Assembly: GCF_014164775.1 (NCBI RefSeq)
Contig: NZ_JACJGB010000002.1
Location: forward strand, 1 to 64,000
Direction of reading: 5' to 3'
Source of the DNA: Tessaracoccus sp. MC1679
GTDB lineage: Bacteria; Actinomycetota; Actinomycetes; Propionibacteriales; Propionibacteriaceae
DNA: 64,000 nucleotides
The notes below the pieces were generated by a model that was given only the letters and a program-made list of their open reading frames with translations, ran no database searches and had not been told where the DNA came from. A program made the translations under genes and the position numbers. Positions 28,310-46,186 of the stretch are shown piece after piece. Each line of letters starts with the position of its first letter. Within the stretch, counting starts at the first letter, position 1.

Positions 28310-29992
28310 ATGCCCATCATGGTGCTCGCCGCGCACCCGCAGCTCGCCCGCACGCTCGCGGAGCATGGCATGACCCTCGATCCGGTGAGCGGTGAGGTGG
28401 TGGAGTTGGAACCGTTCAACGCGGTGATGTCGAAGCGGTCGGCGCAGATCAGGCGCAACCTCGACCGGCTCGAAGCCGAATGGCAGGCCGCGCATCCGGG
28501 CGAGGTGCTCGGCCCGGTGATGACCGCTCGGTTGCAGGGCATCGCGTGGACGCATCAGCGGCCCGGGAAGAAGCCCGCCGACCTCAAGAACGAGCAATGG
28601 TGGCGGCAAGAACTCGCGGATGCCGGATACGACCCCGCAACCCTCGAACACCGGGCCGTGCGTCCAGTGGTGTCGGTCGATGACCTGGCCGTGCAGGAGG
28701 TTGCGTCGCGCGCGTTGGATCGGTGCGCGGCGTCGTCGTCGGCGTGGACGCGGCACACGATCCAAGAGCAGGTCACCAGGATCACCACCGAGGCAGGCGT
28801 GCACGCAACGGCCGCCGAGTTGCGCGAGTTCATCGCCTTGGCGACCGGCTTGGCCGTCTCGGACTGCTTCACCATCCTGCCGCCCGGTAGTGCGATGCCG
28901 GAGCATGTCGCGCACCTGACCAGCCTGACCGTGATCGCAGCAGAGACCGCACTACGCGACCAACTCACCGCCACCGTTCCCGCTGCTCGACGTAGCCGAG
29001 GCGGCACACGTCGCAGGACTCGAGGCTGGCCAGCAGGTGGCCGCCGCCGCTGTTGCTTCGAGCGATCCGTTAGTGATCGTGGAAGGAGCGGCGGGCGCGG
29101 GCAAGACCACCATGCTCGGCGTCGCCATCAAGGTCGCTGCCGAGCAGGGGCGGATGTCTCGGGTGGTTGCGCCCACTCTCAGTGCGGCGCAGGTCGCGCA
29201 CGACGAACTTGGCGTGCCCGCAACCAGTGTTGCGGCGCTCGTGCACGCGCACGGCTGGCGATGGAAAGACGATGGGGTCTGGACATGTCTCAACCCCGGC
29301 GATCGCGATCCCGAGTCGGGGCGCATCTACATCGGCCCACCCATAGACGCGCGCCTGCGCGGTGGTGAGCGGGTGATCGTGGATGAGGCCGGGATGCTCG
29401 ACCAAGACACCGCCCACGCCCTCCTGACCGTCACCGCCGAAGCCAGGGCGACCGTCGCGCTCGTCGGTGACCGCGCACAGCTCCCGGCGGTTGGTCGGGG
29501 CGGGGTGCTCGACATGGCCGCGCAGATCAGGGGCCGCACCTACGACATGACCGAACTCCACAGCTTCGCTGATCCCGAGTACGCGGCCCTGCCCCTGGCG
29601 ATGCGCGACAGGCAGAATCCCGGCGACGTGTTCGACCAGCTCGCCACGATGGGCCTGGTCACGCTGCACGCCGACGACGGCCACGCCCAAGAACACATCA
29701 CCAACGACGCGCGAGACGGGGAGGCGATCACCCTCGCCACCAACGATGAAGCGGCAGCGGTGAACGAGCGCATCCGCGCCGGACGCATCGAGCGCGGCGA
29801 GGTCAACGACATCATGACGGCGACCGGCAGCGACGGCCTGCCCATCGGAGCCGGTTCTACATCGAGGAGGACGACGAGCTGCGCGTCGAGAATGCATGAC
29901 CGTTCGAGATGCTGCCCGAGCCCGGGGTCAACGCGGACGCCCTCACATGGGCCGCGAACGCCGACAAGGCCCGAGCCCCGGCCCTTGATTCA
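28310..29992 (+). pseudogene. Decayed MobF-type conjugative relaxase/helicase
   Basis: From 28310 the frame encodes relaxase-family spacer sequence (FNAVMSKRSAQIRRNLDRLE, LEAEWQAAHPGE). Near 28980 the reading shifts by one base into the frame of LDVAEAAHVAGLEAGQQV and the helicase module with Walker A VEGAAGAGKTTMLG, then RVIVDEAGMLDQDTAHALL. A second shift near 29856 breaks the frame again, and a further piece (FEMLPEPGVNADALTWA) is readable to about 29990. The N-terminal relaxase domain with its histidine triad is missing. The gene is a dead remnant of a conjugative element, lying directly against the left attachment site. Confidence 0.8.
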
Positions 29993-30021
29993 TCGGGCCA
30001 AGGTTCGAGCCTTGTGCGTTG

Positions 30022-30067
30022 GGTGCCCCCAGCGGGGCTCGAACCCGCGACCCATGGATTAAAAGTC
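30022..30067. repeat. Left attachment site (tRNA-Lys 3' fragment)
   Basis: A 46-bp copy identical to 54635-54680. It contains bases 30-73 of the tRNA-Lys gene (minus strand) up to the anticodon loop, after which the sequence diverges (TGACAAC instead of CACTGCTC). This is the displaced tRNA end left by integration. Confidence 0.92.
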
Positions 30068-31609: not shown

Positions 31610-33172
31610 GTGACCCAAGACGAGGCACGCGCGCTTGCTCTTGCCCTGATCCCTGCCAACTTCGGCCCCTTGTCGTTGTCGGAGCTTGAGAGCTATTTGT
31701 CTGCGGCGGCCGACCTGTTGCGCGGCGCGATCGACCAAGCCGACTTCAAGGCGTACATCTTCCCGTTGATGTTCTTCAAGCGGATCTCGGACGTCTACAT
31801 GGAGGAGTACGGGCAAGCCCTGGCCCAGTCGGGAGGCGACCACGAGTTCGCTTCGTTCTCTGAGAACCACCGCTTCACGATCCCCGAGGGTTGCCTATGG
31901 GAAGACGTCCGCGCCCGTACGCAGAACATCGGGACGGCTCTCCAGACGGCCTTCCGGGCCATCGAGAAGGCGAACCCCGAGACGCTCTACGGGATCTTCG
32001 GGAACGCGAACTGGACCAACAAGGACAAGCTGCCGGACCGGCGGTTGAGCGATTTGATCGAGCACTTCTCCTCGAAGGCTTTGACTAACGCGGCGGTGCC
32101 CCCGGACGTCTTCGGCAACGCCTACGAGTACCTGATCAAGAGGTTCGCCGACCAGTCCAACAAGAAGGCCGGGGAGTACTACACCCCGCGCTCGGTGGTG
32201 GGCCTGCTGATCAACATCCTCGACCCGAAGGAGGGCGAGACCGTCTACGACCCAGCCTGTGGCACGGGCGGAATGTTGATCGAGGTCATCCAGCACGTGA
32301 AGGACCGAGGCGGCAACCCGAAGACCCTGTGGGGCAAGCTATACGGCCAGGAGCGGGTGCTGGCCACCGCCAGCATCGCCCGCATGAACCTACTGCTCCA
32401 TGGCATCGAGGACTTCAGGATCGCCCGCGAGGACACCCTCCGCAGCCCCGCCTTCTTCACAGGCAACCGGCTCGCCCAGTTCGACTGCGTGGTTGCCAAC
32501 CCGCCCTTCTCGCTGAAGAAGTGGGGCGAACTGGAGTGGGCCTCCGACAACTGGGGCCGCAACCTGCTTGGTGGCGTCCCCCCGACCAGCTACGCGGACT
32601 GGGCTTGGGTGCAGCACATGCTCACCTCGAAAAAGCCCCGCACTGGCCGTGTCGCGGTGGTACTGCCCCGAGGTGCACTGTTCCGGCAGGGGGCCGAAGC
32701 TCGAATCCGAACCCACATCGTGAAGTCGGACGTCGTCGAGGCCGTCATCGGTCTTGCGCCCAACCTTTTCTACGGGACCGGCTTGGCCGCGTGTGTGCTG
32801 ATCCTGCGCGCCAGCAAGGCCCCGGAGCGGGCGGGCAAGGCGTTGTTCATCAACGGCGAGAAGCTGTACAGGCGCGGCCGGAACCAGAACACTCTCGAAC
32901 CCGAGCACGCCGAAGCGTTGTTGAAGGCGTACGTGGCGTTCGCCGACGCCGATGGGGTGGCCCACGTCGCTACTCTCGACGAGATCGCGTCGAACGACTT
33001 CAATCTGAACATCCCCCTCTACGTACCGCCAGCCGACACGGGCGAACGAGCGACCCTCGCCGATGCGCTCCGCGAGCTGAAAGCGGCGAAGGCCGCGGCG
33101 GCCGCCACCCGTGCCGCGCTGGAAGCCGAACTGGCCAAGTGGGGGCTCGGCACGGACGGAGCCAACCAATGA
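31610..33172 (+). CDS. hsdM: Type I restriction-modification N6-adenine methyltransferase, first copy
   Basis: HsdM methylates adenine in the site read by HsdS. The N-terminal HsdM_N bundle (SELESYLSAAADLLRGAID, then IFPLMFFKRISDVYMEEY) is followed by the methylase domain with motif I YDPACGTGGM near residue 213 and catalytic motif IV ANPPF near 297. The C-terminal tail is a long alanine-rich helix. At 520 aa it is normal in length. The GTG start has a TGAGGAG site upstream. It differs clearly from the second hsdM that overlaps it, so this is not a recent duplication. Which of the two pairs with HsdS cannot be told from sequence alone. Confidence 0.93.
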   Translation: MTQDEARALALALIPANFGPLSLSELESYLSAAADLLRGAIDQADFKAYIFPLMFFKRISDVYMEEYGQALAQSGGDHEFASFSENHRFTIPEGCLWEDVRARTQNIGTALQTAFRAIEKANPETLYGIFGNANWTNKDKLPDRRLSDLIEHFSSKALTNAAVPPDVFGNAYEYLIKRFADQSNKKAGEYYTPRSVVGLLINILDPKEGETVYDPACGTGGMLIEVIQHVKDRGGNPKTLWGKLYGQERVLATASIARMNLLLHGIEDFRIAREDTLRSPAFFTGNRLAQFDCVVANPPFSLKKWGELEWASDNWGRNLLGGVPPTSYADWAWVQHMLTSKKPRTGRVAVVLPRGALFRQGAEARIRTHIVKSDVVEAVIGLAPNLFYGTGLAACVLILRASKAPERAGKALFINGEKLYRRGRNQNTLEPEHAEALLKAYVAFADADGVAHVATLDEIASNDFNLNIPLYVPPADTGERATLADALRELKAAKAAAAATRAALEAELAKWGLGTDGANQ

Positions 33173-34659
33173 CGATCCGGATCACCCAGAACGAACTGGA
33201 ATCCTACCTGTGGGGCGCTGCAGTCGTGCTCCGCGGCCTGATCGACGCCGGTGACTACAAGCAGTACATCTTCCCGCTGGTGTTCCTGAAGCGGATCTCC
33301 GACGTCTACGACGAGGAACACGCCGACGCTCTCGCCGTATACGGCGACGAAGACCTGGCCGACCTACCCGAGAATCACCGCTTCGCCATCCCCGCGGGCT
33401 GCCACTGGTCCGGCATCCGCGGGGTCACCAGCAACATTGGTGCCGCCATCCTCACCGCGATGCGCGCCATCGAGAAAGCCAACCCCGATACTCTGCCCGG
33501 GGTGTTCGGCGACGGTGACTGGGGCAACAAGAACCTGCTCTCCGACCGGACTCTGTCCGATCTCATCGAGCACTTCTCGACCAAGACCCTGTCGATCGCG
33601 AACTTGCCCGAAGACGAGCTCGGCAACGGGTATGAGTACCTGATCAAGAAGTTCGCCGACGACTCCGGACACACCGCGCAGGAGTTCTATACCAACCGCA
33701 CGCTGGTCCACCTGATGACGATGATGCTGCAGCCCGAGCCCGGGGAGTCCGTCTACGACCCAACGTGCGGCACCGGGGGAATGCTCATCTCGACCGCGGC
33801 CGAGTTGAAGCGCCAAGGAAAGGAATGGCGCAACCTCCGCCTCTACGGTCAGGAACTGAACTACGGAACCTCGGCCATCGCCCGCATGAACCTGTTCCTC
33901 CACGGCATCATCGACGGCCAGATCGCCCACGGTGACACCCTCACCAAACCTGCCTTTCACGACCAGCACGGTCGTCTGCAGTCCTTCGACGTCGTCCTCG
34001 CTAACCCGCCCTACTCGATCAAGGCGTGGAACCGGGAAGCGTTCGCCAAGGACCCTTACGGCCGCAACATGTGGGGCGTCCCACCCCAGGGCCGCGCCGA
34101 CTACGCCTTCTTCCAACACATCGCCAAGAGCCTCCACCCGAAGACTGGCCGCGCCGCCATTCTGTTCCCGCACGGCGTTCTGTTCCGCCGCGAAGAAGCT
34201 GCCCTCCGCGAAGGACTCGTGAAGTCCGACCTGGTCGAGTGTGTCCTCGGCCTTGGCGAAGGGCTCTTCTACAACAGCCCCATGCCCGCAACGGTTGTCT
34301 TCCTACGCTCGAAGAAGAGTCCGTCTCGTCAAGGCAAGGTCCTGTTCATCAATGCAGCGAACGAATTCGCTCGCGAGCAGGCACAGTCGCTCCTCCGGCC
34401 CAGCCACCAGAAGAAGATCCTCAACGCCTACCGCGCATTCACCAACGACGACGGCTTCGCGGCCGTCGCCGACCTCGACCGGATCGCAGCCAAGGGCTAC
34501 AGCCTCGCCATCCCTCTCTACGTCAACAGCACCACAACGAGCAAGGCAGAACGAGTATCGGTAGCCGATGCGGTTGAGGACTGGCGATACGCAGCCGAGT
34601 CAGCCGATGAGGCCATCGCGGACGTCCTAGCCCTGCTTCAGCAGGAGGCGGTCCGGTGA
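33169..34659 (+). CDS. hsdM: Type I restriction-modification N6-adenine methyltransferase, second copy
   Basis: A second, divergent HsdM (496 aa). It begins with the same layout (QNELESYLWGAAVVLRGLID, then IFPLVFLKRISDVYDEEH), has motif I YDPTCGTGGM near residue 197 and motif IV ANPPYS near 279. Motif IV is NPPY here and NPPF in the first copy. The ATG at 33169 overlaps the first hsdM stop as ATGA, and its stop overlaps the hsdS GTG as GTGA. Both genes look intact, so the enzyme may hold two kinds of methylase subunit in one complex. Confidence 0.93.
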   Translation: MTIRITQNELESYLWGAAVVLRGLIDAGDYKQYIFPLVFLKRISDVYDEEHADALAVYGDEDLADLPENHRFAIPAGCHWSGIRGVTSNIGAAILTAMRAIEKANPDTLPGVFGDGDWGNKNLLSDRTLSDLIEHFSTKTLSIANLPEDELGNGYEYLIKKFADDSGHTAQEFYTNRTLVHLMTMMLQPEPGESVYDPTCGTGGMLISTAAELKRQGKEWRNLRLYGQELNYGTSAIARMNLFLHGIIDGQIAHGDTLTKPAFHDQHGRLQSFDVVLANPPYSIKAWNREAFAKDPYGRNMWGVPPQGRADYAFFQHIAKSLHPKTGRAAILFPHGVLFRREEAALREGLVKSDLVECVLGLGEGLFYNSPMPATVVFLRSKKSPSRQGKVLFINAANEFAREQAQSLLRPSHQKKILNAYRAFTNDDGFAAVADLDRIAAKGYSLAIPLYVNSTTTSKAERVSVADAVEDWRYAAESADEAIADVLALLQQEAVR

Positions 34660-35825
34660 CCCTCAACCTCGACAAATCCAGTTGGAATCGAGTAGTTCTC
34701 GGAGACGTCGCCTCAGCCTCCAAAGAGAAGGTTGACCCCACTGATGGCACCATACATCGATACGTCGCCGGGGAACACATGAACTCCAATGACCTCAAGC
34801 TCAACCGCTGGGGTGATGTCGGTGACATAGACGTCGGTCCGGCATTCCATCGTCGGTTCAGGCCCGGCCAGGTGCTGTATGGCTCGCGCCGCACCTACCT
34901 GCGCAAGGTAGCGGTGGCCGAGTTCGACGGCGTCTGCGCCAATACCACCTTCGTTGTTGAGCCAACAGATCTCAACGCCCTGCTGCCGGATTTCCTTCCC
35001 TTCATCATGAGCGCCGAACCGTTCCACGCGTTCGCCATCGCTGAGTCGAAGGGATCGGTGAACCCCTACGTCAACTGGTCGGACATCGCACGCTACGAGT
35101 TCCTTCTCCCGGCGCTCGACGAGCAGAAGCGCATCGCGGATCTGTTGTGGGCCGCAGAGCGCCATCGGGCATCACTTCGGTTATCGGCCACCCGCGCTCG
35201 CCTCACAATCCAGCATTGGCTGGATGACACGATATGCGGTCTTGAATTGGCGCGGCCACTTAGGGCCGTGGTCGGATCGTCTGCATACGGCCCGCGGTTC
35301 TCGAACTCGCTGTACTCGGATGACGGAGAATTCCGACTTCTGCGTACGACAGATATGGATGGTGTGGGGAGAATCGACTACGGGACCATGCCAAGGGCGA
35401 GGTTGGACGACTCCTTCCGGCCCCACCTCCTAGCAGATGGTGACTTCTTGATTTCGAGGTCCGGCTCCTGTGGAGTCCCCGCGGTCTTCGACGTCTCCGT
35501 TGGCGGCGACCAAGTGATCCCGGGCGCCTTCTTGATCCGGCTGCGACTGACCGAGGAAATGGATCCACACTTCCTACGGGCCTACTTCAACTCCGCCCCT
35601 GGCCGGAATCTCTCCCAGAGCCTCGCGCAGGGTGGTGTGCAGAAGAACATCCGAGGATCTTCGCTCTTAGCAGCGCACGTCCCTGTACCGACGCGAGCCA
35701 CTCAAGCCGAGATAATGGACACCTTGGGTCGTCTCTTGGTGGGTGCCGAGTCAATCAATGGCGAACTTGCGGCCCTGGACGCAGTGCGTTTCTCCCTGAT
35801 CGACGACATCCTTGGAGGCGCCTGA
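34656..35825 (+). CDS. hsdS: Type I restriction specificity subunit
   Basis: HsdS carries two target-recognition domains that read the two halves of a split DNA site. The first repeat runs to about residue 180 (GQVLYGSRRTYLRKVAVAEF, then NPYVNWSDIARYEFLLPALDEQKRIADLL), the second to the end (DGDFLISRSGSCG, then IPGAFLIRLRL, then NIRGSSLLAAHVPVP). The conserved ends of both halves end in the spacer helix. Length 389 aa is usual. The recognition sequence cannot be predicted by eye. Confidence 0.92.
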   Translation: MTLNLDKSSWNRVVLGDVASASKEKVDPTDGTIHRYVAGEHMNSNDLKLNRWGDVGDIDVGPAFHRRFRPGQVLYGSRRTYLRKVAVAEFDGVCANTTFVVEPTDLNALLPDFLPFIMSAEPFHAFAIAESKGSVNPYVNWSDIARYEFLLPALDEQKRIADLLWAAERHRASLRLSATRARLTIQHWLDDTICGLELARPLRAVVGSSAYGPRFSNSLYSDDGEFRLLRTTDMDGVGRIDYGTMPRARLDDSFRPHLLADGDFLISRSGSCGVPAVFDVSVGGDQVIPGAFLIRLRLTEEMDPHFLRAYFNSAPGRNLSQSLAQGGVQKNIRGSSLLAAHVPVPTRATQAEIMDTLGRLLVGAESINGELAALDAVRFSLIDDILGGA

Positions 35826-38764
35826 TGTCTCAGTTCAAAGAGGACTCAACCGTGCGTGACTTCGTACGCGACTTGGTGGCGTCGGTCGATGTCCAATTCG
35901 TGGCTGGCAAGGACCTGCCGCGGAGTCTGGGCGAGGTGGTGTTGGAGTCCCAGGTGCGGGCGGCGTTGCTCCGGTTGAATCCGGCGATCGCGGAGGACCC
36001 CTCGCGGGCGGACGAGGTGCTCTATCAGTTGCGGGCGATCCTGATCTCGGCGCGGACGAGTCCGCACCCGGTGGTCGCGAACGAGGAGTTCACCGCCTGG
36101 TTGACAGCCCAGAAGTCCCTGCCGTTCGGGCCGAATGGCGAGCACGTCACGGTGCGGCTGATCGACTTTGACCACCCGGAGGATGCGTCGGCCAACCAGT
36201 GGGTGTTCTCCACGGAGGTGATCTTCCGGCAGGGGCGGATCGAGAAGCGGTTCGACAACGTGTTGTGGTGCAACGGTTTCCCGTTGGTGGTGGGTGAGGC
36301 GAAGTCCGCTACGCGGCCGGCGTATACGTGGATTGACGGTGCCGCGCAGATCCACGATGACTACGAGGTGAACGTCCCGCAGTTCTTTGTCCCGAACGTT
36401 CTGGTTTACGCCACGGAGGGCAAGGACTTCAGGTACGGCTCGATCGGGATGCCAGTCGAGATGTGGGGGCCGTGGCGTGAGGAAGAGAACCGCTCCGAGG
36501 CACCGGTGAAGATGGGGCTCGCGGTGGTGAAGGAGGCTGTCGAGGGTGTGCTGCGCCCGGCGGCGGTGTTGGACTTCCTGCGGTACTTCACGCTGTTCGC
36601 CACGGATAAGAAGTTCCGCAAGATCAAGATCATCGCTCGGTTCCAGCAGTTCCAGGCTACCAACCTCATGGTCGAGCGGGTGTTGCACGGCAAGGTCAAG
36701 AAGGGCCTCATCTGGCACTTCCAGGGCTCCGGCAAGTCGCTGCTCATGGTGTTCACCGCGCTCAAACTGCGCGGCATCGCCGGGCTGCGGAAGCCGACCG
36801 TGATCATTGTGGTGGATCGGGTGGACCTCGACACCCAGATCACTGGCACGTTCAACGCCGCCGACGTCCCCGGCCTCGTGCGGGTGGACTCCCGCGCGGA
36901 GCTGCAGCAGTTGCTTGCCCAAGGCACCCGCAAGGTCCTTATCACGACGATCCACAAGTTCGGCGAGGCCCCCGGTGTCCTGAACGACCGCGACGACGTG
37001 ATCGCTCTGGTAGACGAGGCGCACCGCTCGCAAGAAGGCGACTTTGGTCAGGCAATGCGGATCGCGCTGCCCAATGCGTTCCTGTTCGGCATGTCGGGCA
37101 CTCCGATCAACAAGCGGGACAGGAACACGTTCAAGTGGTTCGGCTCAGAGGACGACGCGGGCGGCTACCTGTCCCGCTACACCTACCAGGACTCGATCCG
37201 TGATGGGGCCACGCTGCCGCTGCACTTCGAGCCACGGCTCTCAGAGATCCACATCGACCAGGAGGCGCTCGACGTCGCTTTTGACGAACTGGCCCGCGAG
37301 CGGGGCTTGTCCGAGGGCGAGAAGATCAGCCTGTCCAAGCGGGCGGCCTCCATCGAGGTGCTGATCAAGGCGCCGGCGCGGATCGCGAAGATCGCCGCTG
37401 ACATCGCCGAGCACTTCAAGACCCGTGTCGATCCGGAGGGGCTCAAGGCAATGATCGTCGTCTACGACAAAGCCTCATGCGTGGCCTACAAGGCCGAGCT
37501 GGACCAGCACCTGCCGCCTGAGGCGTCCACCATCGTGATGTCGAAGAGCCGCGACGACAAGCCCGAGTGGAGCGAGTGGACCCCGAACGCCGAGCAGACC
37601 GAGAAGTTCCTCGCCGCGTTTAACGACGCCGCCGACCCGCTGCGGATAGTGATCGTCACCGCCAAGCTGCTGACCGGCTTCGACGCCCCCATCCTGTACT
37701 GCCAGTACCTCGACAAGCCGCTCAAGGAGCACACCCTGCTCCAGGCAATCACCCGTACCAACCGGGTTTACCCGCCCAACAAGTCCCATGGATTGATCGT
37801 GGATTACCTGGGGATCTTCGACGACGTCGCGAAGTCGTTGGCCTTCGACGAGAAGAGCGTCCATGACGTCGTCACCAACATCGAGGAACTAAAGGCACGG
37901 GTCGCCCCGGCCGTGGCGGCAGCCCTGTCTTTCTTCCCGGGGGTGGACCGCACTGTCGGCGGCTACGAGGGCCTGATCCAGGCCCAGGCCGCCATCGCCG
38001 ACACCGCGACGAAGGACGCCTTCGGTCTGGCGTACAGCGTTGTCTCGCAACTGTGGGAGATCGTCAGCCCCGACCCGATGCTCGCGCCGTTCAAGGCCGA
38101 CTATCGCTGGCTGACCGACGTCTACGAGTCAGTGCGTCTTCCCGACATCACCGGCCGCCTAGTTTGGCATGCCCTCGGGGCCAAGACCGTGGAGCTCATC
38201 AACGAGCACGTCCAAGTCGAGGTGCCTCAGGACGATGTCGAAACCATCGTGCTGGACGCCGAAACCATTGCTGACCTGATGCACGGCCGACGCACTGGCG
38301 TCACCCCGCAAGAGATCGAGAGACAGATCACCGCCCGCATCGCCCGCCACCTCAGCAATCCGGTATTCGTCGAACTGGGCAAGCGACTCAACGAACTGCG
38401 TGAACGGTACGCAGCGGTGCAGCAGTCCAGTCTGGACTTCCTGCGAGAGCTTCTGGAACTGGCCCGAGACACCGTGGCCGCGGAGAAGGCCATCAACGAG
38501 GTTCCCCGTGAGGAGCGCGGCAAGGCTGCCCTCAGCGAGCTGTTCGAGGCGCTCAAGACTGAAGAGACCCCGATCATCGTGGAGAACATCGTCAGCCGCA
38601 TCGACGAGGTCGTCCGGGCCGTCCGCTTCGATGGCTGGCAGTCCACGATCGGCGGGGACCAAGAGGTCAGGAGAGCACTCCGTCAGGTGCTCTACCTGCA
38701 GTTCAAGATCCGCGACAACGACGTCTTCGAGAAGGCCCTCGGCTACGTCAAGGAGTACTACTGA
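35825..38764 (+). CDS. hsdR: Type I restriction endonuclease subunit
   Basis: HsdR translocates DNA and cuts unmethylated sites. The N-terminal PD-(D/E)xK nuclease motif is seen as LVVGEAKSA near residue 155. The helicase follows: Walker A FQGSGKSLLM near 300, DEAH-type box LVDEAHRSQEG near 395, GMSGTPINKRD, and motif VI LLQAITRTNRVYPP. The C-terminal part is helical and binds the methylase core. Length 979 aa is normal. Its ATG shares one base with the hsdS stop (TGATG). Confidence 0.95.
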   Translation: MSQFKEDSTVRDFVRDLVASVDVQFVAGKDLPRSLGEVVLESQVRAALLRLNPAIAEDPSRADEVLYQLRAILISARTSPHPVVANEEFTAWLTAQKSLPFGPNGEHVTVRLIDFDHPEDASANQWVFSTEVIFRQGRIEKRFDNVLWCNGFPLVVGEAKSATRPAYTWIDGAAQIHDDYEVNVPQFFVPNVLVYATEGKDFRYGSIGMPVEMWGPWREEENRSEAPVKMGLAVVKEAVEGVLRPAAVLDFLRYFTLFATDKKFRKIKIIARFQQFQATNLMVERVLHGKVKKGLIWHFQGSGKSLLMVFTALKLRGIAGLRKPTVIIVVDRVDLDTQITGTFNAADVPGLVRVDSRAELQQLLAQGTRKVLITTIHKFGEAPGVLNDRDDVIALVDEAHRSQEGDFGQAMRIALPNAFLFGMSGTPINKRDRNTFKWFGSEDDAGGYLSRYTYQDSIRDGATLPLHFEPRLSEIHIDQEALDVAFDELARERGLSEGEKISLSKRAASIEVLIKAPARIAKIAADIAEHFKTRVDPEGLKAMIVVYDKASCVAYKAELDQHLPPEASTIVMSKSRDDKPEWSEWTPNAEQTEKFLAAFNDAADPLRIVIVTAKLLTGFDAPILYCQYLDKPLKEHTLLQAITRTNRVYPPNKSHGLIVDYLGIFDDVAKSLAFDEKSVHDVVTNIEELKARVAPAVAAALSFFPGVDRTVGGYEGLIQAQAAIADTATKDAFGLAYSVVSQLWEIVSPDPMLAPFKADYRWLTDVYESVRLPDITGRLVWHALGAKTVELINEHVQVEVPQDDVETIVLDAETIADLMHGRRTGVTPQEIERQITARIARHLSNPVFVELGKRLNELRERYAAVQQSSLDFLRELLELARDTVAAEKAINEVPREERGKAALSELFEALKTEETPIIVENIVSRIDEVVRAVRFDGWQSTIGGDQEVRRALRQVLYLQFKIRDNDVFEKALGYVKEYY

Positions 38765-38823: not shown

Positions 38824-40920
38824 ATGGCAGCGATCTTCAAGACCGTGTCCTGGCAGGTTGACCAACTGGTCAACGGAGTCAAGACCGGCACCGTCCAGCT
38901 GCCGGACCTGCAACGTCCGTTCGTGTGGCCTGCCACCAAAGTTCGGGACTTGTTCGACTCCATGTATCGCGGGTACCCGGTGGGCGAACTCATGTTCTGG
39001 GACGTCCCGGCCGAGGGAGAGACGCGGACCATCGGCGGCGACGCGAAACTCGCCGCGAGCCACCAGATCATCGATGGTCAGCAGCGGCTGACGAGCCTCT
39101 ATGCGGCGATGCAAGGCCACCCTGTTCGTGACGAGGCGTACCGGCAGCGGACCATCATGATCTCGTTTAACCCGTTCAGTGAGAAGTTCGAGGTCCGGAC
39201 GCCAGCGTTGGCCAAGTCCGTGCAATGGGTGGAGGACATCTCCACGTGCTTCGACTCACCAATTCGCGCCCGCAAGGACTTCCTCAAGCGATACAGGTCC
39301 GCCGACAACACACTCACCAACGACGATGAGGAACGCATCGAGGAGGTGTTCGCACGACTCAGCGAACTGAAGAACTACCTGTTCGACGTCGTCCACATCC
39401 AGAAGGAGGCGGACAAGCGACTGGTCGCCGACATCTTCGTGCGAATCAACTCCGAAGGAGTCCGGCTCAAGGCGTACGACTACATCCTCACGTGGTTGAG
39501 CGTCTTCTGGCCAGAGGGCCGCGAGGCCATCGAGCAGTTTGCCCGCAACTCACGTATCTCGCCTCAGCGGGCATCCGAGATTGCGGGGCGCCCGGTGAAG
39601 TGGACCGCCCTGAACCCCTACATCGCGGTTGACAACGGTCACCTCGTCAGGGCGATGGTCGCTATCGGACAAGGGCGCGGGCGACTCCAAGACGCCTACG
39701 CGGCCTTGCAGGCCAAGGACTCGACCACCGGCTTCGTAAACCCGGACCGCCAAGAAGGGGAGCTGAACAAGTTGAAGGGCGCGCTGCCCGTCGTCACGGA
39801 CCGAGTCAGTTGGACCGAGTACATCCGTGCCATCCAGACGGCAGGCTTCCGTTCCTCACAGAACGTGACGTCCAACATGAACCTCATCTACAGCTACGTG
39901 ATCTTCGTGCTAGGCCGCACCCGCTACAAGGTCGCCTTGGACGAATTGCGCACCCTGATTGCCCGGTGGCTGTTCATGTCGCAACTCACCGCCCGCTACA
40001 CCGGCTCGTCAGAGTCCCAGATCCAGAAGGACTTGGACCGGATCGAATCCATTCAATCCGGAGATGCCGAGGGCTTCACTCGGGTGCTGAACGAGATCAT
40101 CGGAGCCCAGCTCACAGCTGACTTCTGGCGCTACAGCGTGCCCCAGCAGCTCATCACCTCCGGCCCTGGGCTGTCCCCGCATTATCAGTGCTACTTGGCG
40201 GCGCTGAACATCCTCGACGCCCCGATGTTCATGCTCGACTCCCGGGTCCGGGACTGGATGGACCCGTCCCAGCCGGCGATCAAGGGAACCGAGGGTCATC
40301 ACCTGTTCCCCCGGGACTACCAGGAGAAGGTCCTCGGCATCACTGACATCAAGCGGATCAACCAGGCCGGGAACTTCGCTCCGACAGACTGGAGCACCAA
40401 CATTGCGATCTCGAACAAGGCACCGGCCGAGTACTGGCCCGAACTCGTCGCTTCCAGGGCCAAGGACCAAGCTTGGCTCGACCACCAGATGTATTGCCAC
40501 GCCCTCCCCCATGGGTGGGAAAACATGGACTACGAGGAGTTCCTCGCCGCTCGTCGCTCCCTCATGGCGCGGCTGACCCGGGACGCCTACAACAAGCTCA
40601 CCGGGGGCCATGTGCAGCCGGTGGAGCCCATGTCCGCGACACCGGAGCATGTTCAGGAGCCGACGCTGAGTGAGCTCGTGGAGCGCGACCTTCTCAGGCC
40701 GGGTGATCTACTGGACCCCGTGGATCCTGAGTGGGAGGTTGACGCGGTGATCAATGACGACGGCACCTTGGTCATCGACGGCACGGAGCTGTTCGATTCC
40801 CTCGATGAAGCAGCTCACCACCTCGAAGTGACGAACATGTCAGGGCTTGAGTTCTGGGCGCTGGAGACTGGTAGGGACCTCATCCCTCTCCACGAGTTGA
40901 TCTCGGTCGGCCGCTCGTAG
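38824..40920 (+). CDS. GmrSD-type DUF262/HNH restriction protein with RAMA-like tail
   Basis: The N-terminal DUF262 (GmrS-like, ParB-fold) domain shows VQLPDLQRPFVWP and IIDGQQRLTSLYAAM near residue 84, the nucleotide-sensing signature. The middle carries an HNH core of DUF1524 type (GTEGHHLFPRDY near 490, then NIAISNKAPAEYW), the GmrD-like nuclease. The last about 80 residues (LSELVERDLLRPGDLL, then DGTELFDSLDEAAHHL, then GLEFWALETG) match the layout of the RAMA domain often attached to methylases and restriction factors. GmrSD enzymes cut DNA with modified (hydroxymethylated or glucosylated) cytosine. It lies 59 bases after hsdR on the same strand and is probably in the same transcription unit. 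Confidence 0.85.
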   Translation: MAAIFKTVSWQVDQLVNGVKTGTVQLPDLQRPFVWPATKVRDLFDSMYRGYPVGELMFWDVPAEGETRTIGGDAKLAASHQIIDGQQRLTSLYAAMQGHPVRDEAYRQRTIMISFNPFSEKFEVRTPALAKSVQWVEDISTCFDSPIRARKDFLKRYRSADNTLTNDDEERIEEVFARLSELKNYLFDVVHIQKEADKRLVADIFVRINSEGVRLKAYDYILTWLSVFWPEGREAIEQFARNSRISPQRASEIAGRPVKWTALNPYIAVDNGHLVRAMVAIGQGRGRLQDAYAALQAKDSTTGFVNPDRQEGELNKLKGALPVVTDRVSWTEYIRAIQTAGFRSSQNVTSNMNLIYSYVIFVLGRTRYKVALDELRTLIARWLFMSQLTARYTGSSESQIQKDLDRIESIQSGDAEGFTRVLNEIIGAQLTADFWRYSVPQQLITSGPGLSPHYQCYLAALNILDAPMFMLDSRVRDWMDPSQPAIKGTEGHHLFPRDYQEKVLGITDIKRINQAGNFAPTDWSTNIAISNKAPAEYWPELVASRAKDQAWLDHQMYCHALPHGWENMDYEEFLAARRSLMARLTRDAYNKLTGGHVQPVEPMSATPEHVQEPTLSELVERDLLRPGDLLDPVDPEWEVDAVINDDGTLVIDGTELFDSLDEAAHHLEVTNMSGLEFWALETGRDLIPLHELISVGRS

Positions 40921-42193: not shown

Positions 42194-43267
42194 CTACTCG
42201 TCGCTCACAGTCAATTTCAGGTACAGGTCCTGGCCATGACGGTACGGCCACATACCGTGGTGGTGGAGGTGGTGCAGGATAACGCCCGAACTAACGCCAG
42301 CTCGGCGGGCTAGGTCCGCAACTCCCGATTTAGATTGGATCCCGATTAGTTCATCACGGATGCTCGCCGGAATCAGCCACTCTTCAGCGAATTCGTTTGC
42401 CTCAGCTTCCCGATCCTCATCAGGGTTAGTCCCAGGCTCTCCCTCCACACACAAAGCAAGGGGATGGCGAAGTACATGTCCGAGTTCATGAAAGAGGGTG
42501 AACCACAACGGCCCATCCTTCTTACCTCGTGCACTAAGGACGATGACAGGCTGGTCTGCCAGCCAGAAGGTCGCGCCGTACGCGCGACATCCCTTGATCT
42601 CTGGCTGCACTACCACCTGCACTCCGGCCTGAGCGAGACATTCCACGAATGCCATGGGTTCCGCGACCAGCCGCATTGACATGGCACGGATTTCAGGTAG
42701 CGCTTCCTGCAGCAAGGAAGCTTGGTACTTGTGGGCTAGAGGTTCCTCCACAGCCGCCAGCTTTGCGAGGCGCAACCACGTGGCCAGACTCGCCATTTCT
42801 GCGTCGAATGCCTGGGTCTGATGGAACGCAACTTGGGGGAGTAGATTTGCAGGCACGAGTGCCTCAGGCGCTCCCACATCGAAGAAGGACATCAGCTGCA
42901 CCATCAGGTGCCCCGGTTTCCGCACATCGCCGGCGATGACGCCACGAGCACGGAGATAGGTAAGGCTCGCCTTGAAGCGCTCCAATAGGCACTTGTCTGC
43001 AGACAGCGAGTTCTCTAGCCCGAGTCGCTCAACGTCGGCCCGGTACTGGGCCTCAAGCGCAAGCCAGCGTTCAGCGGGAACGTGGGTGACGAGGGCCAAC
43101 TTGGTTGCGAAATCTGGCGTGACGGGAGCCCCTGCAATTACCATGGTGATGTGTTTCCGGGACACGCCAGCGCGCCGCGCCAACTCCGCCCGGGACATGT
43201 CGCGATCCTCCAGCCACTCGGCGATGAACTCGCCCGTAGGAACGGCGTAATCAGTCTTGCTTGCCAT
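42194..43267 (-). CDS. higA: HigA-type antitoxin: XRE helix-turn-helix plus ImmA/IrrE metallopeptidase
   Basis: The N-terminal about 70 residues are a helix-turn-helix (MSRAELARRAGVSRKHITMV). The C-terminal half is a DUF955 ImmA/IrrE domain with zinc motif LFHELGHVLRHP near residue 259 and DREAEANEFAEEWL, which supplies the third ligand. The protein (357 aa) lies 14 bases after the HigB-like toxin gene, in the toxin-first order of higBA modules. It should bind the toxin and its own promoter; the peptidase may allow signal-dependent cleavage, but that is inference. Confidence 0.82.
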   Translation of the reverse strand: MASKTDYAVPTGEFIAEWLEDRDMSRAELARRAGVSRKHITMVIAGAPVTPDFATKLALVTHVPAERWLALEAQYRADVERLGLENSLSADKCLLERFKASLTYLRARGVIAGDVRKPGHLMVQLMSFFDVGAPEALVPANLLPQVAFHQTQAFDAEMASLATWLRLAKLAAVEEPLAHKYQASLLQEALPEIRAMSMRLVAEPMAFVECLAQAGVQVVVQPEIKGCRAYGATFWLADQPVIVLSARGKKDGPLWFTLFHELGHVLRHPLALCVEGEPGTNPDEDREAEANEFAEEWLIPASIRDELIGIQSKSGVADLARRAGVSSGVILHHLHHHGMWPYRHGQDLYLKLTVSDE

Positions 43268-43281
43268 GGTCTTCCCTCCCC

Positions 43282-43593
43282 TCAGTGCTTGTAGCAGTCA
43301 CCTATACATAGAACTCGCCATCCCCGGGTTCCACCGTTCTCGACTATTGGCTGAGCGATGATCGTGCTGGCGCCAGAGAGCTCACCACCGAGGCAACCCG
43401 GCCAGTCGTGGTTGATCGGGTGCCAGTCTCCCGGTCCCTGCCGAAGGGCCACGCTATCCGCCGACACTTCAAGTTCCTTGATCCTGCGGGCCAGCTTCTT
43501 GGCCCCCGGCCTCCCGAGTTGCCTGGTCGCTACCGCCTGCCTTTCACACAGCTCCCTCAGATCTTCACTCGCGTACTCGATGCAGTAGGTCAT
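43282..43593 (-). CDS. higB: HigB/RelE-family toxin
   Basis: A 103-aa protein with the RelE/HigB layout: LRELCERQAVATRQLGRPGA, then KKLARRIKELEVSAD, a central WHPINHDWPGCLGG and an ending IGDCYKH close to the usual IGDYH. HigB toxins cut mRNA on the ribosome. The gene is directly upstream of the HTH-ImmA gene. The ending has Cys where Tyr/His is common, so activity should not be taken for granted. It may help keep the element in the chromosome. Confidence 0.75.
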   Translation of the reverse strand: MTYCIEYASEDLRELCERQAVATRQLGRPGAKKLARRIKELEVSADSVALRQGPGDWHPINHDWPGCLGGELSGASTIIAQPIVENGGTRGWRVLCIGDCYKH

Positions 43594-43889
43594 CGAGCAT
43601 CCTCGTTACCTGATAGGTAACAGTCTGCCACGTTCAACGCAGGAGAGCGCCGCCTTCCGCCACCCTCGCGAGGCGTGGAAGGACGCGCAGCCCTTGCATC
43701 CGACATCCTGACCGCCCTCCCCCTGGCCTCGTGAGCCTAACCACCACCACTCGGAACCCCCTGATGCGCCCGCGCACTGAACCGCGGATCGGCGTTTGGC
43801 TACTCCCACGCCGCCCGCCCAAGACGCGGAATCCGAACTACCGTATCGGCATCCCAGCAGGTCCCCCAGCCGGAGGTGGCCGAGTAGCG

Positions 43890-43919
43890 GTGTACAGCAA
43901 TCGACCCATTGCTGTACAC
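43890..43919. promoter_or_regulatory. Perfect 12-bp inverted repeat before the resolvase
   Basis: GTGTACAGCAAT (43890-43901) and ATTGCTGTACAC (43908-43919) are perfectly complementary around a CGACCC spacer, ending 8 bases before the resolvase ATG at 43928. It fits an operator or resolvase subsite; it also lies between the divergent toxin and resolvase genes. Confidence 0.7.
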
Positions 43920-43927
43920 TCATATAC

Positions 43928-44587
43928 ATGAAGACACCCATCCAGGTAGGCGAGCGACCGCTGGCGCTCGCCTACGTGCGTGTCTCCACAGCGGAGCAGG
44001 TCGAGACAGGTGCATCGCTGGACGCCCAACGGGCCACGCTGGTTGCTGAAGCGGACAAGCGCGGGTGGGCTGTCGAGGTGGTTGCGGACGAAGGCAAAAG
44101 TGCCAAGTCGCTGAACCGTCCCGGACTGCAGTCTGCGCTGGCTCGGCTCGACGCAGGGCAGGCCGACTACTTGATGGCGATCCGACTCGACCGGGTTTCC
44201 CGTTCCGTGAGTGACTTCGCGGGCTTGCTTGACCGGGCGACGAGGAAGGGGTGGGGCTTGGCTTTGTTGTCCCCCAACCTCGACACCAGCGACCCGGCTG
44301 GCCGCTTCACAGCGAACGTCCTAGCCAGCGCTGCCCAGTACGAGCGCGAGTTGATTGGCGCACGGACACGCGAGGGCATGGCGCAGCGCGTTGCGGAAGG
44401 CGTGCGGATGGGGCGACCCCGCACAATGGCGACCGCGGTCGTTGATCGCATTCGCGCCGCCCGCACGCAAGGTCAATCGCTTCGGCGCATCGCCGACGCC
44501 CTAAATGCCGACGAAGTGCCGACCGCCCAGGGCGGGGCTCGATGGCACGCCTCGACGGTCAAGGCAGTGCTCGACTCCGCGGAGTAA
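43928..44587 (+). CDS. Serine resolvase/invertase family recombinase
   Basis: A 219-aa small serine recombinase. The catalytic part shows LALAYVRVSTAEQVETGASL with the active Ser, then YLMAIRLDRVSRSVSDFAGLL with the conserved Arg residues, then FTANVLASAAQYERELIGAR. The C-terminal helix-turn-helix is RIRAARTQGQSLRRIADALN. The start at ATG 43928 follows the inverted repeat; longer frames lack support. Likely jobs are dimer resolution of an excised or replicating form, or cassette inversion. Confidence 0.92.
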   Translation: MKTPIQVGERPLALAYVRVSTAEQVETGASLDAQRATLVAEADKRGWAVEVVADEGKSAKSLNRPGLQSALARLDAGQADYLMAIRLDRVSRSVSDFAGLLDRATRKGWGLALLSPNLDTSDPAGRFTANVLASAAQYERELIGARTREGMAQRVAEGVRMGRPRTMATAVVDRIRAARTQGQSLRRIADALNADEVPTAQGGARWHASTVKAVLDSAE

Positions 44588-44743
44588 GCGAGCGAGTCAT
44601 CGTCGATGTCAACCAGGGCGGTGGACATCGCAATCGTGTCAACCGTTCAACCGGCCACCTGGCGTGTCAACAACGCCCTCAACGATCTCAACCAGCAGGG
44701 CACCCGACCCCGCCGGTCTCCAACCAACCCCAAGGAGAATGCC

Positions 44744-46186
44744 TTGAACCTCACCTCAACCATCACCGACCGCGCCGCGGGCGTCCTGCTGGGCCAGGCC
44801 ATCGGCGACGCCCTCGGCGTACCTTACGAGTTCGCCAGCCCCATCCGCGCGGGTGAGGCCCGCATGGTAGGCGGGGGCCTCGGCCCCTACGCCCCCGGGG
44901 AGTGGAGCGACGACACGCAGATGGCGATCTGCATCGCGCAGGTCACCGCGACCGGCTCGGACCTGCGGACCGCCAAGGCGCTGAACGCCGTCGCTAGGAG
45001 CTTCCTGGACTGGCAGCAGCGCGGAGCCTCGGACATCGGCGCTCAGACATCGTCGGTGCTGCACGCCGCCCGCCGTAGCAAAGGCGCGCTCGCCACGCGT
45101 ATGACCAATGCTGCCCAGCACGCCGCTCGCGAGGGACGGGCCGGAAACGGCGCGTTGATGCGCACGGGCGTCGTCGGCCTCGTCTCGCTCGACGACCGGC
45201 AGGCCACTGCGGATGCCGCTCGTCGCGTGGCTGGTCTGACCCACGCCGATGATCGATGCTTGGATTCGTGCGTCTTGTGGTCGGAGGCGGTCCGGGTCGC
45301 GGTGGTCGAGGGGCGTTTCGACGTCCGCGCCGGCCTAGACCTCCTTCCCCAGAACCGCCGCGCTGAGTTGACCGCGATCATAGACGAGGCCGAGAACCGA
45401 CCGCCGGCCTACTTCGCGAAGAACGGCTACACGATCACCGCGATGCAGGCCGCATGGTCTTCGATCCACTCCACGAGACACATCGAGGGGCCCGATCATG
45501 TCGAGCTCGCCCTCCAGACGGCCATCTCCATTGGTCACGACACCGACACCGTGGCGGCCATCGCCGGTGCACTCCTCGGCGCGAGGTACGGCGTCTCCGG
45601 GCTATCCACCGATCTGGCCCGCCGTGTCCACGGCTGGCCGGGCCTGCGAGCCCAGGACCTGATCCGGCTGGCCTTAGGCACCGCAACCCAGAAGGAGGAC
45701 CCCGTGTGGCCGGGGACCGCGTCCATGTTGTCCGGACTGGGCAGGCAACTAGCCGTCCCTCACCCGGCAGACCCCGACGTGCTCCTCGGCACCGAGGCCG
45801 ACCTCGCACGATGCGTCGAACTTGGCGTGACCGCGGTGGTCAGCCTCTCGCGAGTGGGCGCGGTTGACACCGCCGCTGCGGGAGTCGCTTCGGACAAGCA
45901 TGCGCATGTCTGGCTTGTGGACTCCGACGACCCTGAGTACAACTCGAACCTCGCCTGGACCATTGAAGACGCCGCCCGCACTATCAAGCGGTTCCGGGAC
46001 CACGGGGAGCGGGTCCTGGTCCACTGTGTCGCCGCCCAGCACCGCACGCCCACTGTTGCCCTGGCCTACGCCCTCCTGCGGGGCCAACCACTGGCTGAAG
46101 CTATCGCGACCCTCACAGACCTCCTCGGCCCCATGGACGAATTGCTCTGGGAAACCGTCACCCTCCAGAAGGCTGAATCACGGTGA
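44744..46186 (+). CDS. ADP-ribosylglycohydrolase fused to a dual-specificity phosphatase-like domain
   Basis: Residues 1-about 300 form an ADP-ribosylglycohydrolase: GVLLGQAIGDALGVPYEF, GEWSDDTQMAICIAQ, EGRAGNGALMRTG and ISIGHDTDTVAAIAGALLG supply the two-magnesium site. The last about 150 residues form a cysteine phosphatase-like domain with HCVAAQHRTPTVA, a CX5R loop with Cys near residue 428. I chose TTG at 44744 because AAGGAG lies seven bases upstream; ATG at 44606 would add a 46-residue tail of unusual composition. Its stop overlaps the next gene's GTG. It may remove ADP-ribose from a target and then act on a phosphate, a two-step role that is inference. Confidence 0.85.
   Translation: MNLTSTITDRAAGVLLGQAIGDALGVPYEFASPIRAGEARMVGGGLGPYAPGEWSDDTQMAICIAQVTATGSDLRTAKALNAVARSFLDWQQRGASDIGAQTSSVLHAARRSKGALATRMTNAAQHAAREGRAGNGALMRTGVVGLVSLDDRQATADAARRVAGLTHADDRCLDSCVLWSEAVRVAVVEGRFDVRAGLDLLPQNRRAELTAIIDEAENRPPAYFAKNGYTITAMQAAWSSIHSTRHIEGPDHVELALQTAISIGHDTDTVAAIAGALLGARYGVSGLSTDLARRVHGWPGLRAQDLIRLALGTATQKEDPVWPGTASMLSGLGRQLAVPHPADPDVLLGTEADLARCVELGVTAVVSLSRVGAVDTAAAGVASDKHAHVWLVDSDDPEYNSNLAWTIEDAARTIKRFRDHGERVLVHCVAAQHRTPTVALAYALLRGQPLAEAIATLTDLLGPMDELLWETVTLQKAESR

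Follow-up and report, generated by a model that had tools for sequence, protein, structure and literature searches.

Classical type I restriction-modification enzymes such as EcoR124I and EcoKI use the product of a single hsdM gene twice. The window analysed here (the whole stretch of 64,000 nucleotides at the start of contig NZ_JACJGB010000002.1 of Tessaracoccus sp. MC1679) carries instead two diverged hsdM genes in one operon, although its HsdM and HsdS proteins belong to the same families and folds as those of EcoR124I and EcoKI. The locus raises the question of whether both methylases work in one enzyme, each on its own half-site, and whether such an enzyme would be a new layout, as an earlier note on this DNA had proposed. 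The operon comprises the following parts:

31610-33172, + strand: hsdM1, 520 aa, GTG start, NPPF methylase subunit, predicted m6A
32498-32509, + strand: NPPF codons of hsdM1
33169-34659, + strand: hsdM2, 496 aa, ATG start, NPPY methylase subunit, predicted m4C
34003-34014, + strand: NPPY codons of hsdM2
34656-35825, + strand: hsdS, specificity subunit, 389 aa, GTG start
34656-35114, + strand: TRD1, S residues 1-153 (limits from the model), predicted cytosine half-site
35238-35693, + strand: TRD2, S residues 195-346 (limits from the model), predicted adenine half-site, diverse among relatives
35825-38764, + strand: hsdR, restriction/translocation subunit, 979 aa

The four genes are arranged head to tail on the + strand with every frame open, and successive genes overlap by ATGA (hsdM1/hsdM2, 33169-33172), GTGA (hsdM2/hsdS, 34656-34659) and TGATG (hsdS/hsdR, 35823-35827). 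Pfam recognised HsdM_N and N6_Mtase in both M1 and M2, Methylase_S in S, and HSDR_N and SWI2_SNF2 in R; the R protein scored 478 bits against TIGR00348 hsdR (cut-off 285). Motif I reads DPACGTGG in M1 and DPTCGTGG in M2, neither protein is interrupted by an internal stop, and the two are 53% identical over their matched part. The coordinates, the Pfam matches and the intact motifs thus confirmed the earlier description of two intact, diverged hsdM genes, one NPPF and one NPPY, overlapping each other and hsdS. Two paralogues lying side by side could also suggest an ordinary homodimeric type I enzyme accompanied by a spare or decaying duplicate hsdM. We rejected this reading as very improbable because both genes are full length, their motifs are intact and their reading frames are coupled. 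Weak matches to the MAD2, MAD5 and PglX models might place the locus in a MADS or BREX methylase defence system rather than in type I; these matches fell far below the NCBIfam cut-offs (MAD2 83.9 and 59.8 bits versus 720, MAD5 28 versus 400, PglX 27 versus 500) and a full HsdR scoring above its cut-off directly follows S, so that we consider the probability of such an assignment negligible.

Sequence searches against the PDB pointed to PacII. The best match of M1 was the PacII M1 chain (7vru_A, 522 bits; 7vru_B, 467 bits) and that of M2 the PacII M2 chain (7vru_B, 552 bits; 7vru_A, 407 bits), so that each M is closest to its own counterpart in this characterised system, as is also the case for S. 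In contrast to the 400-550 bits reached by the PacII chains, the M chains of EcoR124I and EcoKI obtained 180 and 92 bits with M1 as query and 144 and 76 bits with M2. Identities to PacII over the aligned parts were 52.5% for M1, 53.6% for M2 and 27.6% for S. As in the window, PacII has two different HsdM (one NPPF, one NPPY), one HsdS and one HsdR. According to Zhu 2022 (PMC9613975), PacII, for which structures are available (7vru, 7vs4), makes both m6A and m4C and belongs to the M1M2S class, in which the NPPF subunit makes m6A and the NPPY subunit m4C; the same source credits this class to Morgan 2016, so that it has been known since 2016. The suggestion of a new layout is thus superseded: the layout was already known, and the window holds an M1M2S member with a small number of substitutions characteristic of the actinobacterial branch to which it belongs. 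We consider it highly probable from the sequence that the four genes form a complete non-canonical type I restriction-modification system of this m6A/m4C kind. The other part of the proposal, a hetero-dimer in which M1 and M2 are each assigned to their own half-site, fared better and is very likely, given the solved M1M2S homologue and the subunit-by-subunit similarity to it, although it would be no novelty.

To place the two methylases among their relatives, we scanned genome contigs with M2 as the sole query, M1 never being used as one, and retained the best 80 loci of 294 relatives. These 80 loci came from Actinomycetota, Bacillota, Bacteroidota, Chloroflexota, Planctomycetes, Cyanobacteria, Pseudomonadota and others. 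M1 was also present in 78 of these best 80 loci, which were gathered by M2 alone, indicating that the pairing is not due to chance; it was absent from L081, in which M2 begins 110 bases from the end of the locus, and from L065, which has 1.7 kb upstream of M2. The last residue of motif IV was F in all 76 M1 rows and Y in all 81 M2 rows of this set, window included (the M1 rows of L038, L067 and L071 were dropped as short), and the likeness of M2 among these loci is partly a matter of ascertainment since they are the best 80 of 294 gathered with M2. In a FastTree phylogeny, the M1 rows clustered together (support 95), as did the M2 rows (support 99); three further HsdMs encoded in the window genome fell outside both groups, as an outgroup that sits on long branches and drew a program warning. 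The window M1 fell in the M1 group and the window M2 in the M2 group. Two separate groups co-occurring in 78/80 loci (best 80 of 294) are not expected from a recent local duplication, which further argues against a spare hsdM.

The earlier note had also called for a database search for the M-M-S-R order. A compact M1-M2-S-R arrangement, with no more than 200 bases separating one matched part from the next, was found in 45 of the best 80 of 294 loci, including 42 of the 43 loci L010-L050, L052 and L055 (L038 being counted with M1 only partly matched); the remainder had larger gaps between parts, or parts missing from the available stretch. Zimmermannella faecalis (L010) and Dermacoccus abyssi (L012) share the compact order of the window, with identities to it of 81% for M1, 83 and 82% for M2 and 77% for R, in contrast to 33 and 46% for S; across the set, the difference in S lies mainly in TRD2. 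Within the family, a close M2 (E <=1e-180) was present in 6 of 198 genomes, window genome included; among the 39 genomes of the genus, M2 was found in the window genome and in G005 (80% identity), with matches at only 41-42% in three further genomes. A copy whose M2 is 80% identical lies on the Streptomyces hirsutus plasmid NZ_CP109265.1 (L094), which is predicted to be conjugative and on which the operon is annotated as two methyltransferases, S and R. This patchy occurrence, together with the plasmid copy, fits horizontal spread.

Several other genes lie between or beside the four parts. Among distant loci, GmrSD_N-like genes occur between M1 and M2 in L070, L072 and L089 (Pfam) and in L079, L083 and L087 (similarity to the window copy). 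Other M1-M2 inserts in non-actinobacterial loci encode a PD-(D/E)XK nuclease (L068), a DUF4145 protein (L074) and Schlafen AlbA_2 proteins (L077, L085 and L086); those of L053, L067 and L088 had no Pfam match. Just upstream of hsdM1, L023 carries an extra methylase-like ORF (L023:2870-5005, Pfam N6_Mtase) without an NPP[FYW] match, and similar ORFs were found in L017, L019, L025, L026, L033, L045, L049 and L055. The window itself has a DUF262/GmrSD_N gene (38824-40920, + strand) directly after hsdR; towards the C-terminus its product shows a weak RAMA match that stays under the cut-off. We found no support for counting this gene as a constant component of the system: BLAST with the window copy matched in 5 of the best 80 of 294 loci (L029, L070, L079, L083 and L087), never directly after hsdR, in a survey that in most loci reaches only some 2.4 kb past hsdR and that overlooked at least two GmrSD_N genes recognised by Pfam (L072 and L089). 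Further downstream lie a gene encoding an HTH and an IrrE-like peptidase (42194-43593, - strand), which matches the PADLOC models PD-Lambda-2_B and RmrA, and adjoining it a small ORF (43282-43593) whose product resembles a RelE/HigB-type toxin, as judged solely by reading its sequence. They are followed at 43796-46186 (+ strand) by a serine recombinase and then an ADP-ribosylglycohydrolase fused to a dual-specificity phosphatase-like domain, the latter scoring 33.3 bits, just below the Pfam cut-off of 33.5. Upstream of the operon, an AAA_30 helicase ORF (29037-30062, + strand) may, from its apparent resemblance, be a fragment of a conjugative relaxase-helicase and possibly the remnant of a mobile element.

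Mapping onto PacII indicated that the NPPF and NPPY pockets, and most of the listed contact residues of both M subunits, are retained in the window. From the list of Zhu 2022 (PMC9613975), M1 retains D25, E170, R252, N276-S280, R336, T367 and R401 (PacII numbering); M2 retains R11, R29, D33/D36/K38, K167/K168, H175, F180, N285-S289, K291, R346, F373 and S376, among which K167, K168, H175, S289, K291, R346 and S376 are M2-DNA contacts of PacII. The differences concern the pocket loops, AGEF in PacII M1 becoming AGEY (F171 replaced by Tyr) and AAEF in PacII M2 becoming AQEF (A178 replaced by Gln), as well as M1 Thr21, replaced by Arg38, and M2 K15, D19, R130 and R410, replaced by N8, S12, L123 and Q404. 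The AGEF and AAEF loops come from an alignment of ten systems, in which they are descriptive and not class-defining (Zhu 2022, PMC9613975). In the best 80 of 294 set, with the window included, the M1 loop place was Y in 41/42 actinobacterial rows and F in 33/34 others, and the M2 loop place was Q in all 43 actinobacterial rows, the 38 others having A (27) or Q (11). The changes in the loops, at M1-Arg38, at M2-L123 and mostly at M2-Q404 are common to the actinobacterial group and thus look like a lineage trait and not like decay.

The motif NPPY alone does not prove cytosine methylation, as some adenine methylases, for instance M.TaqI, also have it. One could thus imagine that M1 and M2 form a hetero-dimer but are both adenine methylases, giving m6A on both strands; the M2 loop, AQEF and not the AAEF given for m4C subunits in the ten systems of Zhu 2022 (PMC9613975), would also fit this reading. 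We consider it improbable, since M2 belongs to an NPPY group that pairs with NPPF partners and is nearest to PacII M2, which comes from a complex reported by that source to make m4C. One m6A and one m4C, and not two adenine motifs, are thus the likely products predicted by our analysis, a chemistry that the test in the earlier note, which looked for one or two adenine motifs, would miss.

One residue deserves separate mention. The ten-system alignment describes Arg29 as conserved in M2 and not in M1 (Zhu 2022, PMC9613975), a mechanistic detail of PacII that does not define the M1M2S class. The window departs from this pattern: M2 has the expected arginine (Arg22), yet M1 also has one (Arg38), aligned with M2-R29. 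Throughout the best 80 of 294 set, window included, arginine occupied this place in 80/81 M2 rows (one gap) and in 41/42 actinobacterial M1 rows (one gap); among non-actinobacterial M1 rows it did so in 13/34, with 19 Lys and two gaps. Since this "gate" arginine is present in both M subunits of the actinobacterial branch, the asymmetric gating put forward for PacII may not hold for M1M2S enzymes in general.

The best PDB sequence match of the specificity subunit was PacII S (7vru_C, 116 bits; next match 41 bits), and in its predicted model (mean pLDDT 94.8) each of the two TRDs is followed by a long helix. This model aligned with PacII S (7vs4_C) at Z 34.9 and rmsd 3.2 over 366 residues, versus Z of at most 25.9 for other type I S subunits. 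In PacII, TRD1 binds CCC beside M2 and TRD2 binds GCAAT beside M1 (Zhu 2022, PMC9613975). Once filtered by length, the S alignment of the best 80 of 294 set comprised 72 rows, made up of the window, PacII and 70 of the 73 loci with an S match, and median identity to the window over the 71 other rows was 44% in TRD1 and 19% in TRD2. The PacII TRD1 residues R75, R76, Y78 and K81 are retained in the window as R78, R79, Y81 and K84, which again argues against adenine methylation by both subunits; they were conserved in 68, 70, 72 and 70 of the 72 rows, respectively. Other positions differ from PacII: the M2-TRD contacts N121, E128 and K136 are A125, K132 and N140 in the window, Q79 is L82, and the base contact H94 is T97, so that the half-site of the window need not be CCC. 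TRD1 subtypes can be distinguished by the residue at the H94 place (D, H, K or T), and the window subtype (GSRR, Leu82, Thr97) is shared with L024, L046, L048, L058, L062 and L066, which belong to several phyla of the best 80 of 294 set. Judging from this subtype, the cytosine half-site of the window may differ from CCC. In TRD2, two of the ten listed PacII residues are retained (R214 and N331), in a mapping that is unsure since the alignment of S rows pairs several places otherwise; as the contacts are mostly unlike those of PacII, a different recognition sequence is expected.

By homology, one M1 and one M2 would dock on one HsdS. TRD1 would present the cytosine half-site to M2, which would place m4C on one strand, and TRD2 would present the adenine half-site to M1, which would place m6A on the other. 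HsdR would then join to form a holoenzyme, R2M1M2S as anticipated by Zhu 2022 (PMC9613975), that would translocate on and cut DNA lacking these marks.

The conservation of TRD1 relative to TRD2 can be compared with the evolution of the two methylases. We computed distance correlations, corrected for HsdR and tested by permutation, over the actinobacterial clade (window, L010-L050, L052 and L055, with L048 and L050 left out beforehand), in which 39 of 42 loci could be used, three being without a usable part; this clade includes one Paenibacillus locus (L028). M2 and TRD1 showed a partial correlation of 0.615, with 0/500 permutations as high. Over the same 39 loci, no signal was obtained for M1-TRD1 (0.019, 210/500 as high) or M2-TRD2 (-0.129, 476/500), nor in this clade for a matching of M1 with TRD2 (0.010, 220/500; 451/1000 in a second run). 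Over 63 loci of all phyla, whole M2 correlated with TRD1 at 0.307 (0/300 as high). In sliding windows, the M2 part of the signal began near residue 300, being weak (0.26) at 251-310, and the S part extended to near residue 175. The C-terminal half of M2 correlated with TRD1 at 0.596 over the 39 loci (0/1000 as high) and at 0.224 over the 31 loci left after removal of eight K-type loci (20/1000); in the 21 D-type loci alone, the value was 0.227 for the C-terminal half (35/1000) and 0.270 for the N-terminal half (34/1000). The coupling thus comes mostly from one set of subtypes: it is weak outside the K type and is not confined to the C-terminal half within the D type.

Four loci (L043, L044, L045 and L047) have a VSAR-type TRD1, in which the first of the two base-contact arginines is missing. 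In "quick" tree runs they formed one clade in the C-terminal half of M2 and one clade in TRD1 (support 99 in each case), the latter partly by construction since they are named by their TRD1 motif, which is not the case for the former. Tests rejected a single clade of the four in M1 (p 1e-5), in the M2 N-terminal half (p 1e-8) and in HsdR (p 2e-55), the M1/M2 test using 40/43 loci with L048 put back. With L012, for example, L043 shares 93% identity in the M2 N-terminal half and 94% in R, but this drops to 66% in the M2 C-terminal half; the nearest relative there is L045 (73%), which is also nearest in TRD1 (81%). The C-terminal half of M2 and TRD1 have thus been exchanged together between operons in those four loci. 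No such block exchange was apparent for the window, whose nearest TRD1 relatives (L024 and L046) do not match its nearest M2 C-terminal halves (L011, L010 and L018).

Joint movement could reflect functional matching or linkage alone, since the end of hsdM2 adjoins TRD1 in the gene order. We tentatively propose, as a reading whose chances we put slightly under even, that in the actinobacterial branch the C-terminal half of M2 (from about NPPY) and TRD1 constitute a transferable cytosine module, M1, the N-terminal half of M2 and HsdR staying together and TRD2 being swapped on its own, in a branch to which the asymmetric gating of PacII would perhaps not extend. If true, such a module would mean that M2, and not M1, is co-specialised with its half-site. 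Among the literature matches listed, no title dealt with mosaic hsdM/hsdS recombination involving m4C, though such work may nevertheless have been published.

Judged by homology, the odd-looking double hsdM of this Tessaracoccus is thus no new architecture but a type I enzyme of the known m6A/m4C kind, and m4C is predicted besides m6A in the methylome of the organism. In the wider family, the TRD1 subtypes D, H, K and T may map to different cytosine half-sites. The set of loci gathered here is a usable resource of such subtypes, and the evidence that M2 and TRD1 move jointly bears on the engineering of new specificities.
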